A DNA stretch of 64,000 nt, from contig JAGAIM010000124.1 in the NCBI GenBank assembly GCA_017626555.1, positions 1-64,000 on the forward strand, in the 5' to 3' direction. The translations under genes were made by a program, and so were the position numbers. Shown here in pieces: positions 39,006 to 60,192 of the stretch; positions within the stretch are counted from its first letter, which is position 1, and each line of letters opens with the position of its first letter. Origin of the DNA: Bacteroidales bacterium. GTDB lineage: Bacteria; Bacteroidota; Bacteroidia; Bacteroidales; UBA932. The notes under the pieces are model-generated. The model was not told where the DNA came from and made no database searches. It saw nothing but the letters and a program-made list of their open reading frames with translations.

Positions 39006-39007
39006 AA

Positions 39008-39739
39008 TTATCCAAATAATTTCTTTGCTTCTTCGTAACTGTCAAGACTTCCTATATCAAAACGTCCGGCACTCATAGGCCAGGCATATACTGTCGTATT
39101 ATCAACCATATAATGAGCAAGATTGCCCGGAGCATCCTTGCCGCATCCGTTCTCCACACTGTGACGCACCAGATCCAGATCCTTCTTCAAATAGATATAG
39201 AAAGGAGGTACAGCCCAATGCGACTTAGGCACCTGAGGCTTCTCCTCCATATTCAGCACCTTGTTATCCTCATCAAGCACGACAACCCCCGTTCTCTGAA
39301 GTCTCTCTATGCTCGGCTGTTCGTGACACATAATGCACGAGGAATCCTTCTCCTTGGCAAAATCCACGAACTCGCGGAAACTGAACATCAGAATATTGTC
39401 AGCCGCCACCACAAGCAGATCATCATCTATCGAAAGTTTATCCATCGCAAAAAGAAGATCACACACAGCCCCAAGGCGGGTCTCATTCGTTGAAGTACCA
39501 TCATCAACGATAGTAATCGGCTTCGTATAATTCTGAGCAGCAGCCCACTCCTCGAATATATGAGCAAAACGATGATTGGTGATGATTATATGCTCGTCGA
39601 TATCCGGAATCCGGTCGATATCGTCCAGCATACGACCGAGAATGGTTGACTCCCCTATCTGCAGGAGAGGCTTAGGAAAATTTCTGGTAAGTTCGCCTAA
39701 ACGGGTCGCATATCCAGCAGCAATTACGACATTCTTCAT
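39008..39739 (-). CDS. Sugar-phosphate nucleotidyltransferase
   Basis: From the ATG at 39739 the protein is 243 aa: VVIAAGYATRLGELT is the nucleotide-binding loop (the second G of GxGxR is replaced by Ala-Thr), followed by FPKPLLQIG and a VVAADNI metal site. This is a GT-A fold NTP transferase, activating a sugar-1-phosphate. Between a GHMP kinase and an epimerase it probably makes the NDP-sugar from the kinase product. Confidence 0.85.
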   Translation of the reverse strand: MKNVVIAAGYATRLGELTRNFPKPLLQIGESTILGRMLDDIDRIPDIDEHIIITNHRFAHIFEEWAAAQNYTKPITIVDDGTSTNETRLGAVCDLLFAMDKLSIDDDLLVVAADNILMFSFREFVDFAKEKDSSCIMCHEQPSIERLQRTGVVVLDEDNKVLNMEEKPQVPKSHWAVPPFYIYLKKDLDLVRHSVENGCGKDAPGNLAHYMVDNTTVYAWPMSAGRFDIGSLDSYEEAKKLFG

Positions 39740-39830
39740 TATACCTGTAGCAGTTATATATTGTTTTTGCACTTGATACCCTCGAAAAACAGGGTACCAC
39801 GAGCATTTTCATATTGAAAGTGCGCGAGGT

Positions 39831-40973
39831 CTAAACAAATCGGGCACCGTCGTCAGTCTTGCAGAAATGGATTTCAAATGTATCTGTATATTCAGGGAAC
39901 ATACGAAGATACTCACTAGTGATCTGCTCTCGGATCTGTTCCTTCTTAGCCGGATCGACAAGAGCAATGCACGCCCCCTTGAAACCGGCACCACTGAAAC
40001 GACCGCCGTAGATACCATCACACTGACGCATAATGTTGTAGATGGCTATCAGTTCCTCGCTGCCGCACTCATAATTCTTGATTGAACTCTGACAACTGTC
40101 AAAACTCAACTGTCCGAAAAGCGCCAGATTGCCTGTCTCCCAAGCAGTCACACCCTTACGGACACGCTTGTACTCGCTATAGAAATGCTCGGCACGACGG
40201 GCAAAACGCGGAGGCATCTTCTCCTTTGTAAGATCATAAGTCTCCTTCGGAATATCACGAAGATAAGTCTTGTCAAACGACTTCAAAGGCATTCCGGTAT
40301 AAGCCATCATATTCCAGGCAGCAGTCTTGCACTCAGCCACGCGAAGATTATAATCGCTGCTCACAAGGCTGCGGGTAAGTCCTGAGAAAATGATTGCAAT
40401 CTCGAACTCCGGCATACGAGGATTCTTCTTTATGATGCGGTACTGCTCAGAATCCGTATCAAGGAAAAGAAGCGAATCCTTCTCACCCAGCACGATACAA
40501 GCCTGATCCAGAATACCGTTTGTCAGTCCGATATATTCCCTCTCAGCCTGACTTGCAGTCTTGATCACCTCCATCTTCGAAAGAGTGATATCATTAGCCT
40601 TGGCCAGAGCCATAACGTATGCCGTCAGCACAGCAGCGCTGCTGGATAGCCCCCCGACAGGCAGGCTTCCCTTAATCACTCCACTTATTCCACGCCTCAA
40701 TTCAAAGCGTTTCTTCAGAGCATATTTTGCACCACGCGCATAATCGCCCCAATTCCCTTCCTTCATCTGAACAGGCTTCGTCACATCAAAACAAACCTCA
40801 CCATCAAAAGTAAGACTTTTCAGATGCACCATACCATCTTCAGTCGGAGTGAACCAGAGATCCACACCCTTATCGAAAGCGAAACCAGTCACCAGCCCGT
40901 GCTGATGATCCACGTGAGCCCCCAAAGGACACACACGATACGGTGAAAAAATGTGGTATTTGTAATTGTTCAT
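39831..40973 (-). CDS. GHMP-family sugar kinase (galactokinase-like)
   Basis: From the ATG at 40973 this is a 380-aa kinase. The N-terminal RVCPLGAHVDHQHG motif matches galactokinases, motif 2 is LPVGGLSSSAAVLTAY, and motif 3 is GGRFSGAGFKGACIAL. With the adjacent nucleotidyltransferase it could phosphorylate and activate galactose or galacturonate. Upstream extension to 41018 is less likely, as the extra residues do not fit the family. Confidence 0.88.
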   Translation of the reverse strand: MNNYKYHIFSPYRVCPLGAHVDHQHGLVTGFAFDKGVDLWFTPTEDGMVHLKSLTFDGEVCFDVTKPVQMKEGNWGDYARGAKYALKKRFELRRGISGVIKGSLPVGGLSSSAAVLTAYVMALAKANDITLSKMEVIKTASQAEREYIGLTNGILDQACIVLGEKDSLLFLDTDSEQYRIIKKNPRMPEFEIAIIFSGLTRSLVSSDYNLRVAECKTAAWNMMAYTGMPLKSFDKTYLRDIPKETYDLTKEKMPPRFARRAEHFYSEYKRVRKGVTAWETGNLALFGQLSFDSCQSSIKNYECGSEELIAIYNIMRQCDGIYGGRFSGAGFKGACIALVDPAKKEQIREQITSEYLRMFPEYTDTFEIHFCKTDDGARFV

Positions 40974-41020
40974 AAAATATATTTGACTAACAGCGAGAAC
41001 CTTCAAGAGTGTTATCAATC

Positions 41021-41896
41021 CTATACCCCAACAGAGCCGACAATATAGTCTCTCCAGTCATAAAATGGGTCGGAGAAATTGATTTCTGGCTGAGGAAACT
41101 GATAATTCCCTCCACATTCAAGGGATGGAACATTCAAACGGCAATCCGCATCAATAACATTTAATCCTGATTCACCTTTGATAACATTAAACTCATTGAG
41201 ATCCCCGACATACAAGTAATCAGTCTTAAAATTAAGATGCATCCCATAATCCATACCAGCATCCTCGAATCCCATTTTATACATAAATGACATCCGTTCA
41301 GATTCAGTTATCAAATCTCCCACTACATAGGGTTGGGAAACAACTACGACAAAATCTCCATTACAACCTCTCGCAAAGCCGATAACCTTCAAGGTCGTCT
41401 CTGGAAACAAGGCATTATGTATAATGATTCTATCTAACGCTAGACGAAGCACTGTGTAATGCTTCAAAGAAATCAACTTATAGACAATTCTATTATAGAC
41501 ATCAAAATAGACAACACTTTCAGATCCGTTGTCTTGTAATAAACAAAGATTGTCAAGATATTCCTCCGGATTTTCAATCCACACTCCTGACAATCTCGCC
41601 CATATCTCAACTATATGTTCTTGAATAGCCGCTTCGCCGACGAGGTCATCCGTATCATAGATCTGCCTTGCCTCAGACTCTGTGCAAGGACATCCTCTAC
41701 AGATAACGGACGCAGCGCACAAGATTTCCGATCCCTTAGACAGGCCTGACTGTTGCGCATATGGAATTCGTTCAAATACTGCTGCTCCATTTTTAATATC
41801 CTCCGCTATTAATTCTAAATCCGATAAATTCTTATCTGTAAAACCTTCATTCCATACTCTTTGGTTAATGTCATTCAACCGCTCAAAATCACTCAT
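41021..41896 (-). CDS. Polyvalent-protein-kinase-like protein
   Basis: The 291-aa protein resembles the kinase-like domain known from phage and plasmid polyvalent proteins: VYFDVYNRIVYKLI with a possible ATP-binding Lys, a helical segment ending RIIIHN, hinge-like VVVSQPYVVGD, and DLNEFNVI followed by NVIDADCRLN, a DxxxxN...D pair. Identification is moderate. It is an accessory gene among sugar-activation genes, so its presence suggests a mobile or phage-derived origin. Confidence 0.55.
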   Translation of the reverse strand: MSDFERLNDINQRVWNEGFTDKNLSDLELIAEDIKNGAAVFERIPYAQQSGLSKGSEILCAASVICRGCPCTESEARQIYDTDDLVGEAAIQEHIVEIWARLSGVWIENPEEYLDNLCLLQDNGSESVVYFDVYNRIVYKLISLKHYTVLRLALDRIIIHNALFPETTLKVIGFARGCNGDFVVVVSQPYVVGDLITESERMSFMYKMGFEDAGMDYGMHLNFKTDYLYVGDLNEFNVIKGESGLNVIDADCRLNVPSLECGGNYQFPQPEINFSDPFYDWRDYIVGSVGV

Positions 41897-41934
41897 AACT
41901 CATCAATAAACATTCCAAAATTATACGACAACAA

Positions 41935-41942
41935 CAAAGTTA
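41935..41942 (-). promoter_or_regulatory. -7 promoter box for the kinase-like gene
   Basis: CAAAGTTA on the plus strand is TAACTTTG on the minus strand (TAnnTTTG), about 39 bp before the ATG at 41896. Confidence 0.5.
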
Positions 41943-42014
41943 CGAAAAGTATTTGAAATTCAAACATTTTCACATAACGAACATATTAAGTTCATATATG
42001 AAAGGCCGGCTCCA

Positions 42015-44059: not shown

Positions 44060-45343
44060 TTATTCTTTGATGATCGCTTCCTTGATGCAATCGACAATAT
44101 AGCGAACGTCATCATCTGTCACACAAGGTCCTGCCGGAAGACAGATGCCTACCTTGAAAATCTCCTCTGACACGCCATTCACGTATGCTGGAGCGGCAGC
44201 ATACACCGGCTGCTTATGCATAGGTTTCCATACAGGACGCGCCTCAACCTTCTTAGAAAGCATAAACATACGTAGAGCCTCCACATTTTCGTTTGGCTGG
44301 CAGTCTGTTGTAGCGCTATCCACAGCCTTGATTACTCCTGCAGCACCACCCACAGCCGAAGTAATCACCTCTTTATAAGCATTCTCCTGACCAACAATCT
44401 TCACCGACGGATCAATAGTAGCAGTACAAAGCCAGAAATTAGAATCATAACGACCGCCCTCAGGCTGATCGTGCAAAGTAATACCAGGAACATCCTTCAG
44501 CAACTGACGATACAACTCCTGGATATGCTTATGATGTGCAATATGATCATCCAGAACTGTCATCTGACCACGACCAATACCAGCACAAACATTACTCATA
44601 CGGTAATTATAACCGATAGCAGTATGCTCATAATAAGGATAAGCATCACGAGCCTGAGTCGCATACCACATAATCTGATTAGCATCTTCAGCAGAACGGC
44701 AGATAAGAGCACCACCACCCGAAGTAGTAATCATCTTATTACCATTGAATGAAAGCACACCGAAACGGCCAAAAGTGCCAAGCACCTGACCATCAAAGCG
44801 CGAGCCCATACCCTCGGCTGCATCCTCTATAACTGGAATACCATATTTCTCAGCAACTGCCATAATACGCTCGCAATCATACGGCATACCATAAAGCGCC
44901 ACTGGAATAATCGCCTTAGGATACTTACCAGTCTTCTCCTTACGATCAAGAATAGCCTTCTCAAGAAGTTCCGGATCCATATTCCAAGTATCACGCTCAC
45001 TATCGATAAAAACAGGCGTTGCACCCAAATAAGTAATAGGATGAGATGATGCACAGAAAGTAAAGCTCTGCACGCACACCTCATCTCCCGCCTGAACACC
45101 ACAAGCAATCAAAGCCAAATGCACTGCAGCAGTACCAGCCGAAAGGCAAACCACCTTACGGTCCAACTTACTGCCATCGTCCATAGCATTCGCGAAATCA
45201 GCAAGATTCTGCTCAAACGCATTCACATTCGGCCCCATTGGCACCACCCAATTGGTATCGAATGCCTCCTTTACATATTTCTGTTCAACACCCTCCTCGC
45301 TCATATGTGCAAGGCAGAGGTAAATTGTTTTTCTTTCTGACAT
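44060..45343 (-). CDS. DegT/DnrJ/EryC1-family sugar aminotransferase
   Basis: This PLP enzyme probably adds an amino group to a nucleotide-activated keto sugar. The 427-aa protein has NWVVPMGPNV, SAGTAAVHLAL, ALYGMPYDCE, IEDAAEGMGS and PLP Lys203 in LSFNGNKMITTSGGG, then the NYRMSNVCAGIG tail. This combination is typical of PglE/PseC-type sugar aminotransferases. Candidate small RNA B lies in the gap upstream. Its keto-sugar substrate would come from an enzyme not clearly seen here. Confidence 0.92.
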   Translation of the reverse strand: MSERKTIYLCLAHMSEEGVEQKYVKEAFDTNWVVPMGPNVNAFEQNLADFANAMDDGSKLDRKVVCLSAGTAAVHLALIACGVQAGDEVCVQSFTFCASSHPITYLGATPVFIDSERDTWNMDPELLEKAILDRKEKTGKYPKAIIPVALYGMPYDCERIMAVAEKYGIPVIEDAAEGMGSRFDGQVLGTFGRFGVLSFNGNKMITTSGGGALICRSAEDANQIMWYATQARDAYPYYEHTAIGYNYRMSNVCAGIGRGQMTVLDDHIAHHKHIQELYRQLLKDVPGITLHDQPEGGRYDSNFWLCTATIDPSVKIVGQENAYKEVITSAVGGAAGVIKAVDSATTDCQPNENVEALRMFMLSKKVEARPVWKPMHKQPVYAAAPAYVNGVSEEIFKVGICLPAGPCVTDDDVRYIVDCIKEAIIKE

Positions 45344-45385
45344 ATTTATGCTGTTTTGTTGATTATTTTATCTATTTTCGCAGTT

Positions 45386-45520
45386 AAGAATTAAGTCGCG
45401 TCTCGGATGAGGTAAATCGTTTCGTGCAAAGTCCCCGCCCCGAGCCTCACCATAAGGTAAACATCCGCCGCGTATTCCTGGGGCAAAGATTAAAGGATGC
45501 TCATCAGGGCATCCTTTTTC
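45386..45520 (+). ncRNA. Candidate small RNA, copy B
   Basis: The predicted length of about 135 nt equals that of copy A. A weak -7 box TATTTTCG (45373-45380) and a terminator (GGATGC/GCATCC stem, 45495-45514, then T5) bracket a core with GTGCAAAGTCCC at 45424 and CGTATTCCTGGGGCA at 45471. A CTCGG/CCGAG stem replaces copy A's GGGGG/CCCCC stem, which could be covariation. No plus-strand gene follows. Confidence 0.6.
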
Positions 45521-46518: not shown

Positions 46519-47211
46519 TCAAATCACTTCTCCAGCATACTTCATCTTTTTACCAAGCACCGTGGCAAAGATCATCTGAATATCCTTCACAAAACTATAA
46601 TTGCGATAGTAGTAACAATTCAAGCGAACTTTATCAGGATAGATTACGTTGTCGTTGTACCAAACTGCTATCTCTTGATCACTCAAGACAGAAAAATCTG
46701 GCAATTCAGCAAATTTAGCCACTTGCTCATTCCTCCCAGCCTTTATCTGTTCAACAAACTCAGCAATCATCTCATCCTCAACACGGTATTTCAAAGTAGC
46801 AGGGCCGGTAATTCCTGGGCGAAGTTTCAAGACATCACGATCAGCTCCCTCCAACTTATCCGCATATCCAGGCACATCCGGACGTGGCCCCACAAAACTC
46901 ATATTGCCAATCAGCACATCCCACAACCCCGGCAGCTCATCAATCTTGTAATGACGAAGCTTGGCACCAAAAGGAGTGATACGACTATCACCTGCCACCG
47001 ACACTGTAGAGCCAGAGTGCTTCACCGTCATCGTGCGAAACTTATGACAGGTGAACAACTTACCACCCCTACCCACACGCTTCTGGCAGAAGAACGCTGG
47101 TCCACCCGGCATCTTAATCTTAATAAGTATCGCCACCAGTGGGAACACCCACCATATCAGCAGTAAGCCACACAGAGCCGCCACTCTATCGAAAATCCAT
47201 TTGAGAATCAT
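46519..47211 (-). CDS. Initiating sugar transferase (bacterial sugar-transferase family)
   Basis: This enzyme loads the first sugar-phosphate onto undecaprenyl phosphate. The 230-aa protein has one N-terminal hydrophobic segment and the family core: FCQKRVGRGGK, CHKFRTMT, KLRHYKIDELPGLWDVL, MSFVGPRPD and LRPGITGPATLKYR. It lacks the N-terminal four-TM domain of long WbaP/WcaJ forms. The ATG overlaps the stop of the GT2 gene upstream by 4 bp. Confidence 0.93.
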   Translation of the reverse strand: MILKWIFDRVAALCGLLLIWWVFPLVAILIKIKMPGGPAFFCQKRVGRGGKLFTCHKFRTMTVKHSGSTVSVAGDSRITPFGAKLRHYKIDELPGLWDVLIGNMSFVGPRPDVPGYADKLEGADRDVLKLRPGITGPATLKYRVEDEMIAEFVEQIKAGRNEQVAKFAELPDFSVLSDQEIAVWYNDNVIYPDKVRLNCYYYRNYSFVKDIQMIFATVLGKKMKYAGEVI

Positions 47212-47990
47212 ATAGTATATTTCTTTACATATTTCAATTTCTTATACACCCCGAACACCATATTCCAAGCTGTCAGCCAAAGCGAATGAATGGCATTATT
47301 ACCATTTGCCTCATGGAAAAGCTTATAGTGCCACTTCATCAAGGTAGCATATCCATGGGTAGAGATACTACCAACTCGCCCCCTACGATACTTTGCCAAT
47401 GGCTCTGCCAACAAGTAACAATCCGCCTTATGGCACACCCTCAGCCACATAGCATAGTCATTGTTCTTCTTGATGTCAGCTATCTGTAGCAAACCTACAT
47501 GTTCCCGGTCATACATCACCGTCAAGCATCCCGGCCAGCAGAAGTTATACATTCCCCTACGGCTCACATGCTTCGGCCCACTGATCAGCACCCCCGTCTC
47601 CTTGCCAATCTCATCCATCTCCACATATTCTGTATACGAGAAATGATAGCCGTTCTCCACCATGAAACGAATCTGCATCTCTAGTTTCTTTGGATGCCAC
47701 AAATCATCCGAATCCAAGAACGCGATCCACTTGCCTTGAGCCCTGCGAAGCGCATTGTTACGGGTAATAGCTGCCCCCGAGTTCTTCGGATTGCAGATAT
47801 ACTTAATACGACTATCCGCCTTCAGATAAGGCTCTATCTGCTCACGGGTGTTGTCCGTACTACAATCGTCTGAAATAATCATCTCCCAATTCTGGTACGT
47901 CTGAGCCTGTACCGAACGGATGGTCTCGCAGATAAAAGCGGCACAGTTCCATGTGGGGGTGATGACACTCACTAAGCCGTACTCATTCAT
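47208..47990 (-). CDS. Family 2 glycosyltransferase
   Basis: This 260-aa GT-A enzyme has VSVITPTWNCAAFI, ISDDCSTDNT and the DXD-type FLDSDDLWHPKKLE. It is cytoplasmic and adds one sugar to the repeat unit. Coupled by a 4-bp overlap to the sugar-transferase gene. Acceptor and donor are unknown. Confidence 0.9.
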   Translation of the reverse strand: MNEYGLVSVITPTWNCAAFICETIRSVQAQTYQNWEMIISDDCSTDNTREQIEPYLKADSRIKYICNPKNSGAAITRNNALRRAQGKWIAFLDSDDLWHPKKLEMQIRFMVENGYHFSYTEYVEMDEIGKETGVLISGPKHVSRRGMYNFCWPGCLTVMYDREHVGLLQIADIKKNNDYAMWLRVCHKADCYLLAEPLAKYRRGRVGSISTHGYATLMKWHYKLFHEANGNNAIHSLWLTAWNMVFGVYKKLKYVKKYTI

Positions 47991-48006
47991 ATATTAATTC
48001 GTTCAT

Positions 48007-48906
48007 TTACTCAGTAACCTTTACCACTCGATTATCTTTTATCTCTAAACTATAGTACTTCATCATATTTCTAATTTGCACATCATTTTGGTTTTCATGA
48101 CAATTCTGACTAGCCAAGGAGGAATGATAATGAAAGTACTGATAAAAGTTATCTAAGCCAATATAAGTATACCCATTACGTTTAAGAACAATCTGTCTTG
48201 TTCCATTAAGAACTCCCATAAAATAGAACCACACATCATCTGCTAATGGCGTAAGACTCATAAATAAGTCCTTTCTGCAGATATCCTTATATAGGTATTC
48301 TTTCTTGTATAGGCAGCCAGCTCCTCCAGTAGGGAATACCATACCTTCACGCACATCACTAATCGTGTCATCCCAGGTATTGTATTCTGCAAATTGATTA
48401 CCATCCGCATGAGGTCTATGTGCACGATGAGTGATTATACAACCTGGATTCTGCTTATGCGCTTCAATCAATCGTTCGACCATATTCCATCGACAATAGA
48501 GATCATCATCAACTGTTATGATCACATCATTTGGATATGTTTCCAAAGTTGGTATCAACTTTTTAAAAGAGCGTAAATCCTCACAATATTTGACAGTAAG
48601 AAGACCTTTCTGCTTAAGACTAGCTATACGTTTTGGTAGCTTTTCATCATTCCAATTATCGCTATCAAGCCATAGGACAATTTCGTCAGGCCTATAAGTT
48701 TGACTTAATAACGAATATATAGAATAAGCTAATACATTATTTACACGTCTCCCATAAGATGTAAGGGAAACTATAACTCTTTCCTCACCTTCTACTCTTA
48801 GCCTATTGAGAGGTTTAAAGTTGGGTGTATATAATTTATATCCCAATTTTATTAGTTCTCCCACACAAGATTCTGTAAGAGTTTTAAATTTCCTGAAATT
48901 CATCAT
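48007..48906 (-). CDS. Glycosyltransferase (GT-A type)
   Basis: The protein is 299 aa from the ATG at 48906 (the next in-frame ATG is 48903). It has VIVSLTSYGRRV, DEIVLWLDSDNWN and IITVDDDLYC, followed by PTGGAGCLYKKEYL and an ADDVWFYFMGV segment, a pattern of capsular GT-A transferases. An upstream start at 48945 would overlap the acyltransferase gene and is rejected. Confidence 0.85.
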   Translation of the reverse strand: MMNFRKFKTLTESCVGELIKLGYKLYTPNFKPLNRLRVEGEERVIVSLTSYGRRVNNVLAYSIYSLLSQTYRPDEIVLWLDSDNWNDEKLPKRIASLKQKGLLTVKYCEDLRSFKKLIPTLETYPNDVIITVDDDLYCRWNMVERLIEAHKQNPGCIITHRAHRPHADGNQFAEYNTWDDTISDVREGMVFPTGGAGCLYKKEYLYKDICRKDLFMSLTPLADDVWFYFMGVLNGTRQIVLKRNGYTYIGLDNFYQYFHYHSSLASQNCHENQNDVQIRNMMKYYSLEIKDNRVVKVTE

Positions 48907-48917
48907 GTGATATAATT

Positions 48918-49933
48918 TTATCGTTTTCCTAGTACATACCTGCACAGAACATTACTCTTGGATAACACAGTGATCACCATCAGACAAACAAGTGTACATA
49001 TTAACGAAAAAAACGCACAAATTATAAATATCGTAAAAGGATCAACATTTGAAATCCAGCCCTGTCCTCTAAAATCAGGTAAAAAGAAATACTGCAACAA
49101 GTATATTCCGAAACTATTTTTTGCTACCAGATTGATGATTTTAGCACATCTTCCATCTGATTTCACTTGCTTAGAAGATTCATAGAGAAGCATCACTACT
49201 ATATACAACCCCAAATATCTAAGTAGTATATCATTTAGGAGACGTTCTAATATATTGGGGAACAATTCTTCATATCTAAGCATGAAGAAGATTATAAAGA
49301 ACAGTCCTACACAAATTGTTCTCAGTAATTCACTATCAAGTATTCGCAAATAATACTTCGAGAAATATTTAGCAAACATTCCCAAAGTAAAGAAATGTAA
49401 ATACTTTGTCAGATGATTTAATTCAATTACTTCAAGGTATTTATCACCAGCTCCTGTGCTCAGATAGCCAATACCAGCGACAGAAAGAATGGTCATAAAA
49501 ATCAATTGCTGTTTTTCTGTTTTCGTCACCAGACAAACAATGTAATATATGATAAAGCATTCCAATAATACACATCCAAACCAGTATTTTCCGAAACCTT
49601 CTGTAAAATCTATCCCCGTCTTTCTAGACAGAGCCCATAACAACGAGAAAATAATCGTTGGTATCAATAACATCGTTATTTTCTTCCAAGCATTTATGAG
49701 ATATTCGCTTATTGCCTTACGCGACTTTAATGCTAAATATCCGCTCACAAAGAAGAACGCCGGCATATTGAATGTGTAAATCAAATCACTTACTATACTT
49801 CCACTAAGTCCAAACCCAAACAATTCAACATGACCATAAATGACACAAATAATTCCTATACACTTTATAAAGTCGAGGTAAATAACTCGCCCCCCCCGAA
49901 AGTTAAATTATTAATAGTCTGTGTATTACCCAT
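48918..49933 (-). pseudogene. Acyltransferase 3-family membrane protein, phase-off by a G8 tract
   Basis: The gene encodes an integral-membrane O-acyltransferase (acetylates sugars of surface polysaccharides). An ATG at 49933 begins MGNTQTINNLTFGGG. With the eight Gs seen (49890-49897) this frame ends at a TAA after ELFTSTL. One extra G joins it to RVIYLDFIKCIGIIC, VIYGHVELFGF and the rest of a normal acyltransferase with about 8-10 TM helices, including FNMPAFFFVSGY. In the present sequence only a TTG-initiated remnant from 49823 stays open. Everything else in the gene is intact, so this looks like a reversible switch, not decay. Confidence 0.85.
49890..49897 (-). repeat. G8 tract controlling the acyltransferase frame
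   Basis: Eight Cs on the plus strand (Gs in the coding sense). Nine would restore one continuous reading frame from the ATG at 49933; eight and seven do not. This is a typical substrate for slipped-strand mispairing. Confidence 0.9.
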
Positions 49934-49961
49934 ATTGACTAACTATTTACAGTTTTGTTTC

Positions 49962-51110
49962 TTATAATATAATCGATTCAATAATACCCTTCATATCCAC
50001 AGAATCAAAATAGTTCATTGCACCTTGCTTATATTTAGGTAAAGCATCAATTACTTTCTCAATTGTTGATATTATTTGATCAGCTCTCATTGGATACGGA
50101 ATACATTCTCCACATCCATACTCAAGATATGTATATTTTAAAGCTGGTATATCATTAGAAATCATTGGTATACCAAACTTTGCATATTCAAAGATCTTAT
50201 TCGGAGCACAATATAACGGGTTTAACGTTAAAGCGATTTGTCCTTTACGAGGGAAATAAGAAAGCACTCCTATTGAAGCTAATTTTGTTATCAACAAATG
50301 ATATGGTGGTCGTATAAAAGGTATAAATATTATTCTATCCGATTCATACTGTTTCTTCAGTCTATCATACATATCACTTCCCTTACCCATCGCTATAAAT
50401 GCATAGTCATCAGGTAATGCGCTGACAGCCTCACAGAACTCCTCCAATTTACGTTCCCCATCTAAGAAGATTCCTTGATAGAGAATCACTTTTTTGTTAG
50501 CTATTTTAGAACAAACAAATTCCACTAATTCTTTAACATCAGAGGGTATATCTATTAATTCCTCATCTTCTACAACCACCTTGTTAGGTAACACAATAGG
50601 TAGTTCTTTTAATTGAAGCATACCTTTTAAAATTTGAGCTCTATTATACTCACAGCACACGATTTTATCAGCCTTTGACATTACTGAGGCTATATCATAT
50701 GATGGATTTAATAGTCTATATTTCCAATTTAGTTTCGGCTCTACATGTTCGAATAGATGAAGTATTGTTTTATACTTACCGATAATATCACTCAACAATA
50801 CAATAGTTTCAGATTGTATAATCCACACTCTATCATCTTTGGTAATATCGGCATTTTGAAGGTATCTTTTTACTTGTGATTTAAATAGAAGTTGTTGCTT
50901 AAACTTAGTTATAAGATTAGCTTCACCATTATATGCCACAGTAGGCCAAAATTCAACACCTTCACTTTCGAATTTTTTCCTTGCAGCCACATCTGAATAT
51001 ACGCCAATATGAACAGGCCTAGTGCCCATCTGAGATAATAACCGTAGTATTGTCAATACTGGAGGATAATGCATAATATCCTCTTTAAGGATGATAAAAA
51101 CTCTTTTCAT
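49962..51110 (-). CDS. GT4-like glycosyltransferase
   Basis: This 382-aa protein has a GT-B layout: an N-terminal domain with HYPPVLTILRLLSQMGTRP, a linker with a VVEDEE segment, and a C-terminal domain with KVILYQGIF, FIAMGKGSD, NKIFEYAKFGIPMISND. The last is the donor-binding region of GT4 enzymes. It adds a sugar to the repeat unit. The gene lies 4 bp after the Wzy-like gene. Confidence 0.85.
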   Translation of the reverse strand: MKRVFIILKEDIMHYPPVLTILRLLSQMGTRPVHIGVYSDVAARKKFESEGVEFWPTVAYNGEANLITKFKQQLLFKSQVKRYLQNADITKDDRVWIIQSETIVLLSDIIGKYKTILHLFEHVEPKLNWKYRLLNPSYDIASVMSKADKIVCCEYNRAQILKGMLQLKELPIVLPNKVVVEDEELIDIPSDVKELVEFVCSKIANKKVILYQGIFLDGERKLEEFCEAVSALPDDYAFIAMGKGSDMYDRLKKQYESDRIIFIPFIRPPYHLLITKLASIGVLSYFPRKGQIALTLNPLYCAPNKIFEYAKFGIPMISNDIPALKYTYLEYGCGECIPYPMRADQIISTIEKVIDALPKYKQGAMNYFDSVDMKGIIESIIL

Positions 51111-51113
51111 TGT

Positions 51114-52352
51114 TTATGTATTATTGAACAAACATTTATTTTTCAAAGCGATCGCTGGCAATAAATACAAAGCCATAGTATTCGTAAAATAGACTGATGC
51201 GACCATAGATAAAACTATTAATGTAAATAATAAAGATTTTCCGCATAGAGTATTACCTTTCCATAAATATCTAAAAAATAAAAATATTATGAATATACCT
51301 ATGTATCCAGTATATATTAAGACATTCTGAAAGGCATTAAAGTATGTAACCATATCATTTTTGCCATACAATGCAGATATTACAGGCGAATTATACGCAC
51401 AACTCTGAATGTAGGAATCATGATCATTACCTATTATTTTGTATAAATTTGAATATTCTGAAAAAATGAAGAATCCTTGATATATTCTCATAAATGTCGA
51501 ACTTGCATAGCCTTTATCAACTGTATCTTCAACACCGACTGTACTAATTCGTTCATTCATTTCTATTCCAGCATCAGTTTTAAAATAAACAGTTAACAAT
51601 AGAACAGACAACAAAAAGCCCATGACCAAAGATGAAACCAACTTTATACCTTTTTGTTTTTTTATAATATTAATTATATAACAAATGAACAATGCCAACA
51701 AGCCGACCATACCATTCCCGGTTTTAGAGCATAATAAAGTTAAAACGAGTATGGAAATCAGCATCCAATTCTTTTTCTTATTATAGAATAATTCCAAAAT
51801 CAACAGTGGTAATAAATACTGTGCAAAAACAGCAGGTTCCTTAAAAAGTGATGCTGAACGACTCCACTCCATTGTTAACTGAATATACTCTTGACCATCT
51901 TCCATTACCGCTATTGGTAAGAAAGGAAAAACAGATGGTATATGTACACCTAAAACTCTTCCGAGTTCTTGTATATAAAAATAGATAATAACAAATCCCG
52001 CTATCTTTTTATATTTAGATATAAAATAATCCAAATCAAAAAGATCAATAAACATAATGTAAGTGATAATAATTCTTAGTATGCCTAAAGGAAGAAATTC
52101 TACTAATGATGAACTTGATAAAATATGTGATAGATACCACCATCCGAAATAGAAAATAAGAGTATGGGGAACTTTTGTATTTCTTATACCATGATTTAGC
52201 AAATGGCATAACGCCAAGAATGATATTACAATGAACGAGAAATCAAATTTTCCCCATCCGTAACATTGAAGAATTGGAGATAGTAACAACAAAACCATCA
52301 CAATTCGTGCGAATAGAGATGGCTGTTTACAATAACTATTATATATTCCCAT
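51114..52352 (-). CDS. O-antigen polymerase-like (Wzy) membrane protein
   Basis: The 412-aa protein has about 10-12 hydrophobic segments and a large extracytoplasmic loop between residues about 250 and 330, the architecture of Wzy polymerases. Sequence identity is low in this family, so the call rests on topology and place between flippase/pyruvylation genes and glycosyltransferases. It is visibly AT-richer than the flanking genes. Confidence 0.75.
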   Translation of the reverse strand: MGIYNSYCKQPSLFARIVMVLLLLSPILQCYGWGKFDFSFIVISFLALCHLLNHGIRNTKVPHTLIFYFGWWYLSHILSSSSLVEFLPLGILRIIITYIMFIDLFDLDYFISKYKKIAGFVIIYFYIQELGRVLGVHIPSVFPFLPIAVMEDGQEYIQLTMEWSRSASLFKEPAVFAQYLLPLLILELFYNKKKNWMLISILVLTLLCSKTGNGMVGLLALFICYIINIIKKQKGIKLVSSLVMGFLLSVLLLTVYFKTDAGIEMNERISTVGVEDTVDKGYASSTFMRIYQGFFIFSEYSNLYKIIGNDHDSYIQSCAYNSPVISALYGKNDMVTYFNAFQNVLIYTGYIGIFIIFLFFRYLWKGNTLCGKSLLFTLIVLSMVASVYFTNTMALYLLPAIALKNKCLFNNT

Positions 52353-52360
52353 ACGGACTA

Positions 52361-53569
52361 TTATCTCACGAATTTATTTTTAATGAAGGCAGCAAATTTC
52401 CAGATACTTTTTAGAACCGGAGTAGCCTGAATAACATTAAAGAAAGATATTCTGTTATAATAAGGAGACCTAAATTCATTACAAGCTATAGATTTATAAC
52501 CTCTAATTTTTATTTGCTCATAAATACCCTCTCTGTTCCTATTTTTTTCAGATACCTGTACTAAATTTCGATTATACTTAGCACCAGCGGCAACAGTAGA
52601 AATATAGAATTCACAATTATTCTTTACTATATTAAAGACGGTCTTTCCTCTTCGCGTATTTAGCAGCAACAGAGACACTCCATTCCTTCTATTCATTTCA
52701 GGGAAGAACTCTTTTATACCCCAATAATCTGCTAATGTAATATCTCCTTGTCGTGGAATTCTAGCAAAGGGACAATCATAACAAGAATACCGTGAAGTCA
52801 TACCATACATAAAACTATATAGGTAAGGACTAAGGTCGTATGATGAGAATTTATACCTCTTTCTCTTTCCCTCATGATTAGTAAGGTAAAAAATCTCGCA
52901 TCCTCCCCATCCTTCATTATTTCTGAATTGATAATCGGATACTTTACCCTTGTATTTTTCTTCCAAATACTTAATATGCTGATCAAATAGCCACTGGCTT
53001 GGGACTCCATGACATACAAGATCAGAGGTGAGAAGAGTGTCGTAATCCTTACGCAAAAAAGACTTCAATCCTGCTACCTGACATCCTGTTCCCACAAAAT
53101 AGCACCAACGTCCAGCCTTCAGTTCTTTCTTTATGTCGGCAAACACTTGCTGCAAGTCGCTCTGTACGTATTTTGAGCCACGAAGCAGATTAAGATCTTC
53201 GAAATTATCAACACCTATATGCTTTACCTGATGGTTTTCGTCCATGGTTGCTCCATACACCTTTCCACCTTGATTAAGAATCCAAGTGGCAATAGCATAG
53301 AACATTCCACCACTGGAACTCATCTTCCGTTGTTCTACCTCCTTCACCATAGCAGCATACACCTCAGGTGTTTCGGTATTGCTATAATTCGGATGCTCTA
53401 CAGGGCATACACGTTCGCAAAGGCCACAATCTATGCACTTATCTTTGTTAATTGTAGGATACAAGAATCCCTCCTCATCCTTTTTGAATGAGATAGCATT
53501 TACTGGACATGCCTGCTCACAGGCAGTACATGCACAACATTCCGATTTAGCTAATGTCTTGAAATACAT
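52361..53569 (-). CDS. FrhB/FdhB-type Fe-S protein of the polysaccharide locus
   Basis: The 402-aa protein starts with two 4Fe-4S motifs (CCACTACEQACPVNA and CIDCGLCERVCPVE), then a coenzyme F420 hydrogenase/dehydrogenase beta-subunit-like domain with SSGGMFYAIA, GTGCQVAGLKSFL and a YSCYDCPFAR Cys group. Such proteins regularly accompany polysaccharide pyruvyl transferases in Bacteroidetes; their reaction in these loci is unproven. The pyruvyl-transferase gene is adjacent upstream, sharing 1 bp. Confidence 0.9.
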   Translation of the reverse strand: MYFKTLAKSECCACTACEQACPVNAISFKKDEEGFLYPTINKDKCIDCGLCERVCPVEHPNYSNTETPEVYAAMVKEVEQRKMSSSGGMFYAIATWILNQGGKVYGATMDENHQVKHIGVDNFEDLNLLRGSKYVQSDLQQVFADIKKELKAGRWCYFVGTGCQVAGLKSFLRKDYDTLLTSDLVCHGVPSQWLFDQHIKYLEEKYKGKVSDYQFRNNEGWGGCEIFYLTNHEGKRKRYKFSSYDLSPYLYSFMYGMTSRYSCYDCPFARIPRQGDITLADYWGIKEFFPEMNRRNGVSLLLLNTRRGKTVFNIVKNNCEFYISTVAAGAKYNRNLVQVSEKNRNREGIYEQIKIRGYKSIACNEFRSPYYNRISFFNVIQATPVLKSIWKFAAFIKNKFVR

Positions 53570-54651
53570 TATTGCAACGCTTTAGTTAAGAAATCATATG
53601 CCTTTTGGCGTTCCTGCTGTAATACGTTATTGGTATGACTGAAGTCTGCAATTTCATTCATTTGCTCTTCTGAAATCTCCTCTTCCAAAAGACGAGAGTT
53701 CAATCCACAAAGATTGAGGATGCTTGTGATGCGAGTAGAGAAGCTGGATGGCATGTATGTCCAAAACTGCTTGTTCAAGTTAATTGAAAAAGCGGTTCCG
53801 TGGAATGAGTTGGTCATTACCACTTCCGCATGGAGAATCAACGAAAGTACCTCACCTGGGTTTACAAAGTAAATTGTCTTGTCTGCATACTTATCTTTGA
53901 TTACATTATCCGAATATGAAACCACCTTCAGATTCTTCTCCTTAGCTATCTTACGGACAGAACGATATATCAAATCCTTATCCTTGATATTGTAAGGGAG
54001 ATATACAAAGAGGTACTTATCTTTAACAAGACGTTTCGATGCAAAAGTTTTCCACTCTTCCTTATTCAGCATAAAAGTTGGATCCAACAAATGTGTTGCA
54101 TTAACTCCCATTTTTCCTAACAACTCAACTGCAGACTGTTCACGAACAGATATAGCAGCGTACTGCGATAACTGTTCTTTAACATAAGCAGCATAATCTT
54201 CCGGTAATGAAGTCATAGAAATAGAAGAAGCGTATGCAATTTTCTTCCCAACAATACCATCAAAGAAATAATGCGTATCATTACCTTCATTATGCGTATA
54301 GTTCCAAAGTTGGTCACTGCCAGATATGTATATGTCAGCCTTTGGACATCGTTTTATAAAATCATCTTCTGCATAGATTGGTTTTGAGACTTTACAATGC
54401 TTATTAAGATAGCTATCAAATTTATACCTTGTAATTACTTGTATCGGGAAAAATAAAAATCTTCTTAGAAACTTCAGAATACTAGAAAAAGAGGTTTGCC
54501 AATATCGCTTATATGTCACACGAGAGGGTACATAGTTTACACATATAGGTAAATATCCTAGTTTCTTCAAAACTTCAGAGGTAGCGATTGCTTGTAGTTT
54601 TGAGCCAAAGTTAAATCCAACATGAACTGTTATAAAAGATACTTTTATCAT
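53569..54651 (-). CDS. Polysaccharide pyruvyl transferase
   Basis: This enzyme adds a ketal-linked pyruvate from phosphoenolpyruvate to a sugar. From the ATG at 54651 it is 360 aa: VGFNFGSKLQAIA, ISGSDQLWN, IAYASSISM, SVREQSAVELL, DPTFMLNKEEW and TNSFHGTAFSI. These are family PF04230 landmarks. A longer frame from 54678 runs into the upstream gene and is rejected; 54651 gives a 4-bp overlap. Confidence 0.92.
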   Translation of the reverse strand: MIKVSFITVHVGFNFGSKLQAIATSEVLKKLGYLPICVNYVPSRVTYKRYWQTSFSSILKFLRRFLFFPIQVITRYKFDSYLNKHCKVSKPIYAEDDFIKRCPKADIYISGSDQLWNYTHNEGNDTHYFFDGIVGKKIAYASSISMTSLPEDYAAYVKEQLSQYAAISVREQSAVELLGKMGVNATHLLDPTFMLNKEEWKTFASKRLVKDKYLFVYLPYNIKDKDLIYRSVRKIAKEKNLKVVSYSDNVIKDKYADKTIYFVNPGEVLSLILHAEVVMTNSFHGTAFSINLNKQFWTYMPSSFSTRITSILNLCGLNSRLLEEEISEEQMNEIADFSHTNNVLQQERQKAYDFLTKALQ

Positions 54652-55508
54652 TTCTTTACACATCTCACTATAAAACACTTAAATTCACTCCACCAATACA
54701 GGGCATTGAGAAGTGGAACTGTTAAAGCAGCATATTTATCAAATCGTTTGTGATATAGAATTCTTCCACGATGTATCATAAGACGCTGTCTCTTATGCGA
54801 AGCTTCTAAATTAATCGTTTTAGAGTGTTCATGAAGATAAACACAATCTAATATCAAATAATTACTTAAACCTGCAAGCTGAACAATCTTTCCTGTAAAT
54901 CTTTCTTCTCCAAACAAGAAAGTACTCTCATCAAAAAAGCCTAGATCTTCAAATACTTTATAGTTAACAAAAAGAAAAGCACCGGGAACGAAACCAACCC
55001 TTTGTACATTTTTGAATTCCGTGTTCGATTGATACTTATGTTGTTTTGGCCTAAACAAATGAGTATACATTCCTATATCATAACATAAATCTGGTACTCT
55101 CATTTCTGGGAATGAAAGAATAGAACCATCAGGTAATTTCTGTAATGGAGAGATAATTGCCGGTTTCTCTAATTTTCCATAAATGCTACATAATGAGTCT
55201 ATTATATCCCAAGAAAAATGAACATCATTATTCATGATACACACAAATTCTGGACTATACTTCCTAGCATACCTTAAGCCAAAGTTATTTCCCTTTGCAT
55301 AACCACCATTTTCTGGAGAAAGAATTACGTCTACATACTCGTTATCAGCAAAAGTTTTAGAAATTTCCTCAAAGGACTCATTAGGTGAAGCATTATCAAC
55401 GATAAGTATTTTAAAATCCTTTCGGTCTGTTTGCAAAAGTTCATTAGTAACTCTTATTGTGTCAGAGTAAGTTTTGAAATTCAATATTAAATATAAAACC
55501 TTAGTCAT
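54648..55508 (-). CDS. Family 2 glycosyltransferase (WbbL/rhamnosyltransferase-like)
   Basis: The 286-aa protein has LILNFKTYSDTIRV, ILIVDNASPNES, YAKGNNFGLRYA, the DXD equivalent MNNDVHFSW, and GFVPGAFLFVNYKVF. The GNNxG motif and MNxD form are typical of rhamnosyltransferases, and the rfb dTDP-rhamnose genes nearby would supply the donor. That link is an inference. Confidence 0.88.
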   Translation of the reverse strand: MTKVLYLILNFKTYSDTIRVTNELLQTDRKDFKILIVDNASPNESFEEISKTFADNEYVDVILSPENGGYAKGNNFGLRYARKYSPEFVCIMNNDVHFSWDIIDSLCSIYGKLEKPAIISPLQKLPDGSILSFPEMRVPDLCYDIGMYTHLFRPKQHKYQSNTEFKNVQRVGFVPGAFLFVNYKVFEDLGFFDESTFLFGEERFTGKIVQLAGLSNYLILDCVYLHEHSKTINLEASHKRQRLMIHRGRILYHKRFDKYAALTVPLLNALYWWSEFKCFIVRCVKK

Positions 55509-56950
55509 TATTTATTTCTGAATTTAGACCACATTGCAATCAAATTATCTCTTAGTAATGTATTCTTGAGAACATAATACTCTAATCCTATCCAGCCTAC
55601 AAAGGATATTAAACTTATTACCACTAAACCAATCAATCCATTATCAATATGACGAACACATAAATATGATAGTAATATTATTGGAATGGCATAAATCGAC
55701 CTAATGAGAACTGCCTTAACAGGCATAGAATAACCGACATATTTATATACAAAATACTGAGCAGAAATCATTACGGCAATTTCACTTATAACCCACACGA
55801 TAGCAGTACCGGTAGAGGCTAATAATGGTACTATTATAATATTGCCTAATAAAGCGACAGATGCTCCTATTATAGAGTTACGAAGAATTGCAGTGTCCTT
55901 CTTCATTGGTGACAACATCTGCAACACCAATATCTGTTCATATCCGCAAATTAACATCAATGGCATGACTATTCTCATAGGCATAATAGCTCCTTCATAG
56001 CCATCACCTGCTACAATACGAATAATCTCTGGAGCACAAAACTCTGCGATAATAATAATAGGTATGACAAACGCAAATAATAGATCTACAGATTTATTCG
56101 TAAGCTTCTTAAATTCATCAATCTTCCCTTCGCTCAACAATGCACTCATTCTTGGCATCATAACACCAGTAAATGCAGAATAAAAAGAAAGTATTATTGC
56201 AAATAACTTAGTAGCAGTTGTATAATATCCAACCTCAACGGTATTGGTAACAAACCCTAAATATGCAACATTGAATGTTGTATACATTGAGGTAAGCAAC
56301 ATATATGTACCTAAAATAAGAAAGGATTTAACATATGGGGTAAAATTGATTTCTTTTAAAGAGACACGTACAAATTTCTTACTATATAATAGATTTACAA
56401 TAGCATTAGCCACTACCATAAATGAAGTCAAAAAGAAATAGAGCAAATAATCGTCTGCAGTCTTTACAAAAAACAATACAGAAACCACATATAAAGCTCT
56501 AATAATTATTGAGCGTGTAGTTATATATTTAAAATCCTCAAGCCCTTTGAACAACCATTCAACCAAGAGCGTGTTCGCAAGTACTTTTGCTGCTCCTATG
56601 TAGAATAAAGATTTATGTTCATATAATTGAGGTACAAACAGTATTGCTAACAGTAATAAGATAATTGCTATTATAGTAGCAGTTAGGTTGAGGAATAAAA
56701 GATTATTAAAAGTTTTTGAGAGTTTTTCTTTATCTCCTTTAACACGAGCTATTTCTCTAATGCCAATGGTAGTTATACCCATCATAGAGATATATATAAA
56801 GTACTGTACAATACTATCTACAAAGTTGCAGATACCAATATTATTCACTCCAAGTACTCTGGTAACGTACGGAAATGTAATCAAGGGAAATAGATATCCT
56901 GATACTGTAAGGATACTACTATATACTACATTCTTCTTTATTGAACTCAT
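55508..56950 (-). CDS. Wzx-type polysaccharide flippase
   Basis: The 480-aa PST/MATE-like protein has about 12-14 TM helices, an N-terminal SGYLFPLITFPYVTRVLGV with the family's PYVTRVLG motif, and IGIREIARVKGD. It would flip lipid-linked repeat units to the periplasm for Wzy. It overlaps the GT2 gene by 1 bp. The 56951-57043 gap holds nothing notable. Confidence 0.92.
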   Translation of the reverse strand: MSSIKKNVVYSSILTVSGYLFPLITFPYVTRVLGVNNIGICNFVDSIVQYFIYISMMGITTIGIREIARVKGDKEKLSKTFNNLLFLNLTATIIAIILLLLAILFVPQLYEHKSLFYIGAAKVLANTLLVEWLFKGLEDFKYITTRSIIIRALYVVSVLFFVKTADDYLLYFFLTSFMVVANAIVNLLYSKKFVRVSLKEINFTPYVKSFLILGTYMLLTSMYTTFNVAYLGFVTNTVEVGYYTTATKLFAIILSFYSAFTGVMMPRMSALLSEGKIDEFKKLTNKSVDLLFAFVIPIIIIAEFCAPEIIRIVAGDGYEGAIMPMRIVMPLMLICGYEQILVLQMLSPMKKDTAILRNSIIGASVALLGNIIIVPLLASTGTAIVWVISEIAVMISAQYFVYKYVGYSMPVKAVLIRSIYAIPIILLSYLCVRHIDNGLIGLVVISLISFVGWIGLEYYVLKNTLLRDNLIAMWSKFRNK

Positions 56951-57043
56951 TAAAAGATGTCTTGTGCATTAATTGTCAATATTCGCCGCAAGAAATTCAT
57001 TTTTTCTCATCGGGAACTAACAACAGTTCAATATTAGACAATC

Positions 57044-58189
57044 TTACTTCAACGCATCCGCAATTCTACCACAAGCCAAACCATCACCATAAGGATTAAC
57101 AGCCTGAGACATCTTAGCATAAGCCTCAGCATCCTCAAGGAGTGTGCTCACCTCATTTACAATCTTATCATAGTCAGTACCCACAAGATGTACAGTACCG
57201 CTCTCCAAAGCCTCTGGGCGCTCGGTAGTATCACGCATCACAAGCACTGGCTTGCCAAGACCTGGAGCTTCTTCCTGAATTCCGCCGGAATCTGTAAGAA
57301 CGATAGTAGCCTTAGACATCAAGTGAACGAACTCAAGATACTGGAGTGGCTCAATGAAGAAGAAGTTAGGACGAGTAAGATCTTCTCCAAACACTTCATG
57401 TATAGGCTTACGCACGTTAGGATTCAAGTGCATCGGGTAAACGAAGTCAACTTCCGGATATTTCTCAGAAAGATCCTTCATAGCAGTCACCATACGTATG
57501 AAGCCATCACCAAAGTTTTCACGTCTATGACCAGTGATAAGCACAAGCTTCTTTCCGTCTGTTAAACGTGTTACATCGTAACCAGCATTGAGAAGAACTG
57601 CATCCTGCTCCTTGGCAAGAACTTCATCATTCCTCAATTTATTAACAACCATATGCAGGGCATCAATCACTGTATTACCTGTCACGAAAATCTGTCCCAT
57701 TGCCTTCTCCTCGATGAGGTTCCTCTCTGAAAGAGGTGTTGGAGAGAAGTTGTAAGTAGCAATACGACCTGTCACCTGACGGTTCATCTCCTCTGGCCAT
57801 GGACTATAAATATTGTGTGTACGAAGACCTGCCTCTACGTGGCCTACAGGAATCTGAGCATAGAATGCTGCAAGAGCAGCTGCTGTAGAAGTAGTAGTGT
57901 CACCATGAACAAGCACTACATCAGGACGACACTCCTTGAATACGTCACGCATACCATTGAGAATACGTACTGTCACATCTGTCAAGTCCTGACCCTGCTT
58001 CATAATGTTAAGGTCAATATCAGGTGTCACCTCAAAAATCTTGAGCACCTGATCCAGCATCTCTCTGTGCTGACCGGTTACACATACGATAGTTTCAAAT
58101 TCATCAGCTCGTTTCTGAAATTCCTTCACGAGCGGGCACATTTTGATTGCTTCTGGTCTTGTGCCGAAGACTAGCATAACTTTTTTCAT
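57044..58189 (-). CDS. wecB: UDP-GlcNAc 2-epimerase (non-hydrolysing)
   Basis: WecB interconverts UDP-GlcNAc and UDP-ManNAc. From the ATG at 58189 the protein is 381 aa, normal for the family: VFGTRPEAIKMCPLV, VTGQHREML, VHGDTTTSTAAALAAF, HVEAGLRTHN, TGHRRENFG, DSGGIQEEAPGLGKPVLVMR and the final VNPYGDG. No ManNAc dehydrogenase was seen next to it, so ManNAc itself may be used. Confidence 0.95.
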   Translation of the reverse strand: MKKVMLVFGTRPEAIKMCPLVKEFQKRADEFETIVCVTGQHREMLDQVLKIFEVTPDIDLNIMKQGQDLTDVTVRILNGMRDVFKECRPDVVLVHGDTTTSTAAALAAFYAQIPVGHVEAGLRTHNIYSPWPEEMNRQVTGRIATYNFSPTPLSERNLIEEKAMGQIFVTGNTVIDALHMVVNKLRNDEVLAKEQDAVLLNAGYDVTRLTDGKKLVLITGHRRENFGDGFIRMVTAMKDLSEKYPEVDFVYPMHLNPNVRKPIHEVFGEDLTRPNFFFIEPLQYLEFVHLMSKATIVLTDSGGIQEEAPGLGKPVLVMRDTTERPEALESGTVHLVGTDYDKIVNEVSTLLEDAEAYAKMSQAVNPYGDGLACGRIADALK

Positions 58190-58231
58190 ATAGTGTATTT
58201 TAATTTTCTTTAAACATTGATCCAATACAGT

Positions 58232-59248
58232 TTACCTATACCCCTCCGGATTCCCCCTCTGCCACTTCCAACTATCTCGGACCATCTCCTCAATACCATA
58301 CTGTGCCTCCCAACCAAGCTCAATCTTAGCTTTCGCAGGATCACAATAACAAGTAGCAATGTCTCCAACTCTACGAAGCTTAATACTATATGGAACCTCA
58401 ACACCGTTAATCTTTACAAAAGCATTAACCATATCAAGCACACTATAGCCATAGCCTGTACCCATATTATAGATACCAACTCCACAAGTTCTTTCAATCG
58501 CCTTCAACGCAGCCACATGACCCCTTGCAAGATCCACAAAATGGATATAATCCCTCACACCGGTACCATCATGAGTCGGATAGTCATTACCGAACACTCC
58601 AAGTTCAGTTCTCTTACCTACAGCAACCTGAGTGATATAAGGCATGAGGTTGTTTGGAATACCGTTCGGGTTCTCACCTATTCAACCGTATGCATGAGTA
58701 CCTACAGGGTTGAAATAACGGAGTATAACTACATTCCATTCATTATCTGCCTCCTGAACATCAATTAACACCTGCCCAAGCATACTTTTAGTCCAGCCAT
58801 AAGGATTGGTACAAACACCTTTTGGACAATTCTCAGTAATTGGAATCTCAACTGGATCTCCATATACTGTAACACTACTGCTGAAGATAATGTTTTTGCA
58901 ACCATGGTTTCTCATTACCTAAACTAAAACAAGAGTTCCTGCAATGTTATTATCGTAGTACTTAAGAGGCTTCTCCACACTCTCTCCTACAACTTTGAGA
59001 CCTGCAAAATGGATACATGCATCAAACTTATGCTCAGCAAACACCCTCTCAATACCAGCACAATCCCTAATATATACCTCATAAAACGGAATCGCCTCAA
59101 CTCCAATAATTTTTGCAACCCTCCCCAAAGAAAACGGATTACTATTACTCAAGTTATCCACTACCACAGCGGAATGACCTGCATTATATAGTTCTAACAA
59201 TATATGGGAGCCTATGTATCCGGCTCAACCAGTTAATAGGATTTAAAT
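58232..59248 (-). pseudogene. galE: UDP-glucose 4-epimerase with several nonsense codons
   Basis: The reading frame is exactly 339 codons with stop, matching full-length GalE (338 aa), with no frameshift. Point changes break it: the presumed ATG is ATT, codon 2 is TAA, codon 8 is TGA (in the TGGAGYIG loop), codon 110 is TAG and codon 189 is TGA (in the HxxG-IGENP segment). The catalytic FSSSVTVYG and NPYGWTK motifs remain. UDP-galactose would need another epimerase. It lies between wecB and the DUF2589 cassette. Confidence 0.85.
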
Positions 59249-59497
59249 TTATATCAATGACATAGATAGGAACAATGTTTCTCGAACAATAAGTCTGGAT
59301 AATATCCCTTGCAGCATCCATTCAGTCTGGTAATCGAAGTCGAATTTCTCTAAATCTTCGCTGCTATACATCTTTGGCATTTTTGTCACAAAGCTATTAT
59401 AGTCATGGGCTATGCCCTTTGTCGACCACAACCTTTCTGACCATGTGATTTTGACTAAAATAAATTCTTTTATAAATCCTAAATCAGAATACAGCAC
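59249..59497 (-). CDS. Small hypothetical protein
   Basis: A possible 82-aa protein starts at a GTG that lies within the end of the upstream gene (19-bp overlap) and ends just before the galE remnant. Segments such as SSEDLEKFDFDYQTEW look protein-like, but there is no known motif. Could be a chance frame or a third member of the DUF2589 cassette. Confidence 0.35.
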   Translation of the reverse strand: MLYSDLGFIKEFILVKITWSERLWSTKGIAHDYNSFVTKMPKMYSSEDLEKFDFDYQTEWMLQGILSRLIVRETLFLSMSLI

Positions 59498-60192
59498 GAA
59501 CCGCCGCCAATTTGATCATCTGTTTCGCTTGCACTGAGATTGTCATAAAATACTCTTCCCCACGTCCAATATGATTTCCATCCTTTCTTCATTTGTTGAA
59601 AGCTTTCTTCATCATATTGATTATGTGCTAATTCTAAGATCTCTTTGTAATCTTCTACTCTCTTCTTAGTTTGTCTATGCAAATAAATACTACTGCAATT
59701 ACGAGTATTAGGGGCAGTCCTTATTGTATAACATTGTCCATTTCGGGTAATAATTCCATGACATTTTCCATTCAAAGACCCAGTTACCTCTGAACCGGGT
59801 TTGAACATTATCAGTTCATCAATAATATTCTCATTTTTAAGAACAAAATCTGCCCAAGCCTTCCTACAATCCAAGTCCTGACATCTATCAGTGTGAATAT
59901 GTGCAACATAATAAGTTTCGCAGATCCTAAAACGAGCCATGATACAACCTGAGAAATTAAAACTTATAGCATCATTCAGGACTGGATAAATAGCAATTTT
60001 TTTGGTCGCCTCATCCCAAAAAACAGCTTGGACCTTTAATCCATTAAATGTATGTGACGCACCATAGGTACAAAACTTTCCTCCAAAACAATGTTGTGTT
60101 ACAACATTATCGCGCCGTGCACGAATTGATAAATCATTCGCAAGTGTAGGGAAAAACGAGGGATCCGCATAAAGTTTATCAATTATTGTCAT
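59479..60192 (-). CDS. Uncharacterised protein paired with DUF2589
   Basis: From the ATG at 60192 this 237-aa protein shows VAHIHTDRCQDLDCRKAW (His/Cys-rich, centre), MFKPGSEVTGSLNGKCHGI, and a CYTIRTAPNTRNC segment. The HIHTD pattern plus several Cys and His could mark a peptidase or metal site, but I cannot assign a family. It follows the DUF2589 gene by 8 bp, so they act together. Confidence 0.6.
   Translation of the reverse strand: MTIIDKLYADPSFFPTLANDLSIRARRDNVVTQHCFGGKFCTYGASHTFNGLKVQAVFWDEATKKIAIYPVLNDAISFNFSGCIMARFRICETYYVAHIHTDRCQDLDCRKAWADFVLKNENIIDELIMFKPGSEVTGSLNGKCHGIITRNGQCYTIRTAPNTRNCSSIYLHRQTKKRVEDYKEILELAHNQYDEESFQQMKKGWKSYWTWGRVFYDNLSASETDDQIGGGSCCILI

Follow-up and report, generated by a model that had tools for sequence, protein, structure and literature searches.

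The AT3 gene and its G tract

The gene considered here lies on the minus strand of the window, which is the whole stretch of 64,000 nucleotides from a Bacteroidales contig (JAGAIM010000124.1) that was analysed and to which the coordinates refer unless another sequence is named. An ATG start codon at 49933-49931 opens a leader (MGNTQTINNLTF...) that holds a run of exactly 8 Gs (49890-49897), the proposed slippage site. In the sequence as assembled the frame from this ATG (49865-49933, minus strand) comprises 22 codons and a stop; it reads MGNTQTINNLTFGGGELFTSTL and meets the stop 7 codons past the tract, which would be the OFF state. In another register than the leader, an acyltransferase-3 (AT3, PF01757) reading frame begins with RVIYLDFIKCIG directly 3' of the tract and runs intact for 323 codons without an internal stop (48921-49889 on the minus strand, 48918-49889 with the stop codon). 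These findings bear out two parts of the original prediction, namely that the frame opened by the ATG stops soon after the tract and that the remainder of the gene is undamaged. Neither ATG, GTG nor TTG occurs in the AT3 frame from the upstream stop codon down to a TTG at 49823-49821, the first canonical start codon of this frame. As judged from the assembled sequence, the full enzyme cannot be produced from the window gene by ordinary translation. Scans for terminators and Rfam families gave no matches, and the promoter scan gave nothing specific (3 promoter-like sites versus 2.0 expected).

AT3 proteins share a fold of about ten transmembrane helices. When the gene is in frame, as in the sheep relative described below (L010), the protein matches PF01757 with 91.6 bits (cut-off 31) over profile positions 2-325 of 326, and the window frame translated from the TTG scores 75 bits over positions 41-325. 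The first helix contains a K-X10-H motif (49830-49865, minus strand; K at 49865-49863 and H at 49832-49830), and the K9 and H20 of this R/K-X10-H motif were invariant in both the 3-row and the 5-row alignment of the clade. Their counterparts in OafA, R14 and H25, are described as essential (PMC7448272), and AT3 enzymes as acylators of surface sugars (PMC9558356). No solved structure chain matched the protein by sequence.

The AT3 gene was found within a polysaccharide cluster, the core of which (47183-58278) contains, according to Pfam matches, glycosyltransferases, the AT3 gene itself, a pyruvyltransferase-like gene (PS_pyruv_trans), an FrhB-like gene and a Wzx-like gene (Polysacc_synt). A polysaccharide-export-like protein is also encoded among the neighbours, a bacterial sugar transferase (Bac_transf) lies at the left edge of the core, just outside the block that is nearly identical in the sheep relative, and a UDP-GlcNAc 2-epimerase-like gene and nucleotide-sugar genes on the right side were named by eye from their translations. 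Given its profile match and its neighbours, the gene is predicted to encode a membrane AT3 enzyme of a surface-polysaccharide biosynthesis cluster, and O-acetylation of the cluster's own polysaccharide is its likely activity.

Tract length in two close relatives and a probable exchange of the polysaccharide core

All sequences compared were assemblies, and the named relatives were metagenome assemblies. Two near relatives were the sheep-colon assembly RGIG5433 (genome G136, locus L010) and the roe-deer cecum assembly RGIG3959 (genome G123, locus L009), which were found first by protein similarity and then again by whole-genome search. Both encode the same leader peptide as the window. The tract of L010 is G9 and its gene is a single open frame of 338 codons, so that the one added G that had been predicted to give a continuous frame exists as a natural in-frame allele. 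In L009 six Gs are followed by an A and the leader is again in frame. The three related assemblies thus carry alleles of 8, 9 and 6 Gs, and in each of them the length of the homopolymer in the 5' coding part decides the frame. Related genomes have consensus lengths other than 8, and the in-frame G9 and G6 alleles support the layout of phase variation by slipped-strand mispairing that had been proposed for the window gene.

The enzyme part of L009 is split shortly after the motif by an insertion (L009 1545-3000) that encodes a 406-codon transposase of the ISAzo13 family (PF07592, 301 bits). The sequence CTTAGT flanks the insertion on both sides, as expected for a target-site duplication. Because this copy is broken by an insertion sequence, the gene appears dispensable and could be decaying. 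Substitutions within the gene were too few to reveal constraint: 0 synonymous and 2 non-synonymous codons between the window and L010, and for L009 1 synonymous and 0 non-synonymous among the 29 codons compared in the 5' part and 3 synonymous and 4 non-synonymous among the 297 compared in the 3' part.

The surrounding DNA was compared with the sheep relative (G136:C28). The core at 47183-58278, about 11.1 kb in length, differed by 23 substitutions (0.2%) and a single indel, which is the tract. The core has 14 further homopolymers of 6-7 bases, all of them A or T, and none of these had changed in length. Over the longer alignment at 46529-60771 there were 374 substitutions and again exactly one indel, the tract. 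Identity was about 84% to the left of the core (46529-47211) and roughly 90% to the right of it (58.3-60.8 kb, 244 substitutions), 92-96% in 44062-45519 and 36003-41972, and 72-80% in the parts to the left of 32.5 kb and to the right of 60.8 kb. A core that differs by 0.2% amid a mosaic of 72-96% identity suggests that the polysaccharide core was recently exchanged between species, and the tract would then be the only length change in the core since the exchange. The roe-deer relative was more diverged, being 91% identical over 49803-58201, with four indels (the tract, three bases beside the ATG, and positions 57038 and 58188), and 98% identical over 47920-49809, with two further indels at the alignment edge. 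When a sample of 31 genomes that did not include G123 and G136 was searched for the locus by DNA, one had it, namely the genome of the window.

The main caveat is that an assembly error at the longest homopolymer would produce the same single-indel pattern. Under this explanation the true tract length of the window genome differs from 8 and the gene is in frame. The one length difference does fall in the block's longest homopolymer, the kind of place in which consensus errors accumulate and an assembly error is likeliest, and the named relatives are themselves metagenome assemblies. The combination of G6 with a neighbouring base change in L009, together with a C8 and a G9 in two divergent homologues (L011 and L012, see below), cannot stem from a single error. 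We regard an error as unlikely. The probabilities given to the alternatives overlap, since an assembly error in the window is compatible with the gene being switched.

Divergent homologues and control comparisons

A protein-similarity search that made no use of the tract gave two divergent homologues, which share 36-37% of their residues with the window protein. One is from a Prevotella assembly (L011) and has a C8 six codons past its ATG, out of frame with the enzyme, and the other is from a Bacteroidales assembly (L012, genome G593) and has a G9 that separates the ATG from the conserved beginning of the enzyme, in frame. The leader of L011 is unlike that of the window. The leader of L012 is longer and shares with the window leader at most a short stretch around NNL, a likeness which makes a common origin of these two leaders possible. 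The tract is absent in 5 of the 10 clade members (L103, L106, L129, L130 and L138), in all of which the start ATG lies four or five codons upstream of a conserved R-x-x-YLD.

In a tree of 20 proteins (without L009) the tract bearers were placed around the tractless group and the minimum number of changes in tract state was two, which fits one gain and one loss as well as several gains; according to a warning of the tree program, the long branch of the window may be misplaced. Profile searches for the clade, with E-value limits of 1e-30 to 1e-50, covered genomes from the order (393), the window's own genus (400), the genus of L011 (299), that of L012 (120) and the family of L011 (399); these samples overlap and all but the 120 were subsampled from larger groups. 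No clade members beyond the window, L009-L012 and the five tractless homologues were found in them. Searches of plasmids and of viral contigs found no relatives of the gene. A distant AT3 homologue with 25% identity is present in the phage record MT835729.1 (4659-5710), an unannotated phage contig.

The homologues also bear on ordinary gene decay, in which the one-base difference in the window would be an early step towards a pseudogene and no switching would occur. Loss of the gene is evidently tolerated where the ISAzo13-type element splits the sister copy of L009. Against decay, no other damage was seen in the window gene, the 11 kb contain no indel apart from the tract, and the two divergent homologues also have tracts, one in frame and one out of frame. 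We consider this explanation to be quite improbable.

The presence of a G8 run is in itself unremarkable. The window contains two such runs versus 0.90 expected, and at least two were present in 30 of 100 shuffles. What exceeds chance at the AT3 gene is the place of the tract, its frame, the differing lengths among relatives and the reappearance of tracts in divergent homologues. In the genome, 22 runs of at least 8 Gs were identified by pattern searches, and 21 of these were tested for a position at gene starts, taken as nearness to the 5' end of an open frame (the run on C179 has no locus). A genome-wide concentration of such runs at gene starts was not supported (5/21 versus a proportion of 0.1294 at random window positions, p = 0.126; p = 0.25 when the AT3 gene was left out). 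The case rests on the AT3 locus.

AT3 genes other than clade members were examined as controls. No G or C run of at least 6 was present in 34 other AT3 genes of the genus, examined from 300 bases upstream (less where the contig ended) to the end of the match. Runs of at least 7 were absent from the 5' stretches of 40 AT3 genes of the genus (361 bases each, one of 287), one of which has a C6 well upstream. The family search identified four AT3 genes in the window's genome, the tract gene included, and neither of the two others examined has a G or C run of at least 7 near its 5' end. Finally, none of 16 distant A1/A2 homologues outside the clade has a G or C run of at least 6. The 76 control AT3 genes were not a random sample, as they were taken from the top of the family listing and from protein-search matches.

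Several other G8 tracts were noticed. The second run of the window (3314-3321, minus strand) lies in a gene at the opposite end, SusC-like as judged by eye, with a signal-peptide-like start and the tract in phase with the ATG. It was rejected as a second switch, the G8 being kept in both relatives checked at a DNA identity of 78%. Another gene that appeared SusC-like by eye (L024 1502-1509, G000:C182) has a G8 near its start that is not in phase with the ATG upstream of it. A second acetyltransferase-like gene (as judged by eye; L084 1417-2007) on the L011 contig has an in-frame G8 84 bases past the ATG. The genome of L012 (G593) gave 75 overlapping G8 matches, corresponding to about 46 separate runs in 1.9 Mb, which exceeds the density of the window's genome, with its 22 runs in 3.1 Mb.

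A proposed slippage switch and its relation to known systems

The two reading frames, the length alleles, the intact enzyme frame and the sole indel in 11 kb can be read directly from the assemblies, and it is likely that they reflect an ON/OFF switch of the AT3 gene driven by slippage, which probably controls acetylation of a surface polysaccharide. In the proposed mechanism the first 14-15 codons would serve as a leader that holds the G tract and is missing in the tractless relatives. Slippage during replication would alter the length of the tract. Leader and enzyme would share one frame (ON) at, for example, the natural lengths of 6 and 9, and at a length of 8 translation would end 7 codons after the tract (OFF). 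Selection by phage or immunity may favour switching. Within a single population, slippage is presumed to occur often and in both directions.

A slippage of RNA polymerase or the ribosome on the G tract would instead allow a minority of full-length product from the 8-G allele, so that the tract would set dosage and not an ON or OFF state. A homopolymer just past the start codon permits slippage of expression in principle, and transcriptional slippage has been described, usually on runs of A or T (PMC3711429). Against it, differences in length exist at the DNA level, which this model does not need; we give it the same low probability as gene decay. A start at a non-canonical in-frame codon (ATT 49883 or ATA 49868, both in the enzyme frame) or at the TTG at 49823, with the tract as an irrelevant 5' region, is very improbable, since L010, L009 and L012 have an ATG and a leader in frame with the enzyme, the start ATG of the tractless members precedes the conserved arginine by four or five codons, and a protein started at the TTG, which lies downstream of the K-X10-H motif, would lack its K and H and makes this codon an implausible start for an active enzyme. 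A TTG start in homologues had been named beforehand as evidence against a switch; the five tractless homologues start at an ATG instead.

The switch of the AT3 gene by changes in tract length would be of a type that is already known, and it is the host group that is unusual. The oafA gene of Haemophilus influenzae likewise encodes a phase-variable AT3 O-acetyltransferase of a surface glycan, the lipooligosaccharide (PMC9558356, PMC11868660), but phase variation of lipooligosaccharide genes in that species is controlled by tetranucleotide repeats (PMC3938747) whereas the window gene has a single-base G tract and belongs to the Bacteroidales. In Akkermansia muciniphila, also a gut commensal, Amuc_2098 has a C10 in an acyltransferase of capsule biosynthesis and was proposed to be phase variable (PMC3048395); Akkermansia is of another phylum, and the account of Amuc_2098 in that source gives no length alleles. 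Contingency genes of Campylobacter and Neisseria are similarly turned ON or OFF by G/C or other homopolymer tracts (PMC8355987, PMC5320596). Such genomes are reported to contain many genes of this kind, e.g. 115 (PMC5084427), whereas in the window's genome runs of at least 8 Gs are not significantly concentrated at gene starts.

Within the Bacteroidales, variation of surface components is described as DNA inversion (PMC12632263, PMC11868660). Surface polysaccharides of Bacteroides fragilis vary through invertible promoters of whole loci (PMC12632263), in contrast to the window gene, where the frame of one modifying enzyme would change. Acetyltransferase-related genes of the PSI/9 locus of B. 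fragilis 638R are disrupted between strains and slippage was suggested as a source of variation (PMC3090145), but the lesions described there are a point stop and an additional C within a stretch of 4 Cs and involve no long tract (PMC3090145). Among the matches listed in the open-licence literature, none reported by its title or the opening of its abstract an acyltransferase of the Bacteroidales switched by a homopolymer.

More tentatively, one acyltransferase clade of ruminant-gut Bacteroidales may have been put repeatedly under the control of slippage through an added leader, with a G tract in two lineages and a C tract in another, and the switch may move between species with the polysaccharide cassette; we think this extension doubtful. 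The state of the switch should be readable from existing metagenome reads, and a search for single indels of the kind seen here would be a simple route to more switches in recently exchanged cassettes. A modifying enzyme switched by slippage would add a finer layer of variation, in which the decoration changes and the backbone stays constant. If the extension to the whole clade holds, the Bacteroidales, known for promoter inversion, would vary their glycans by slippage as a second mechanism.
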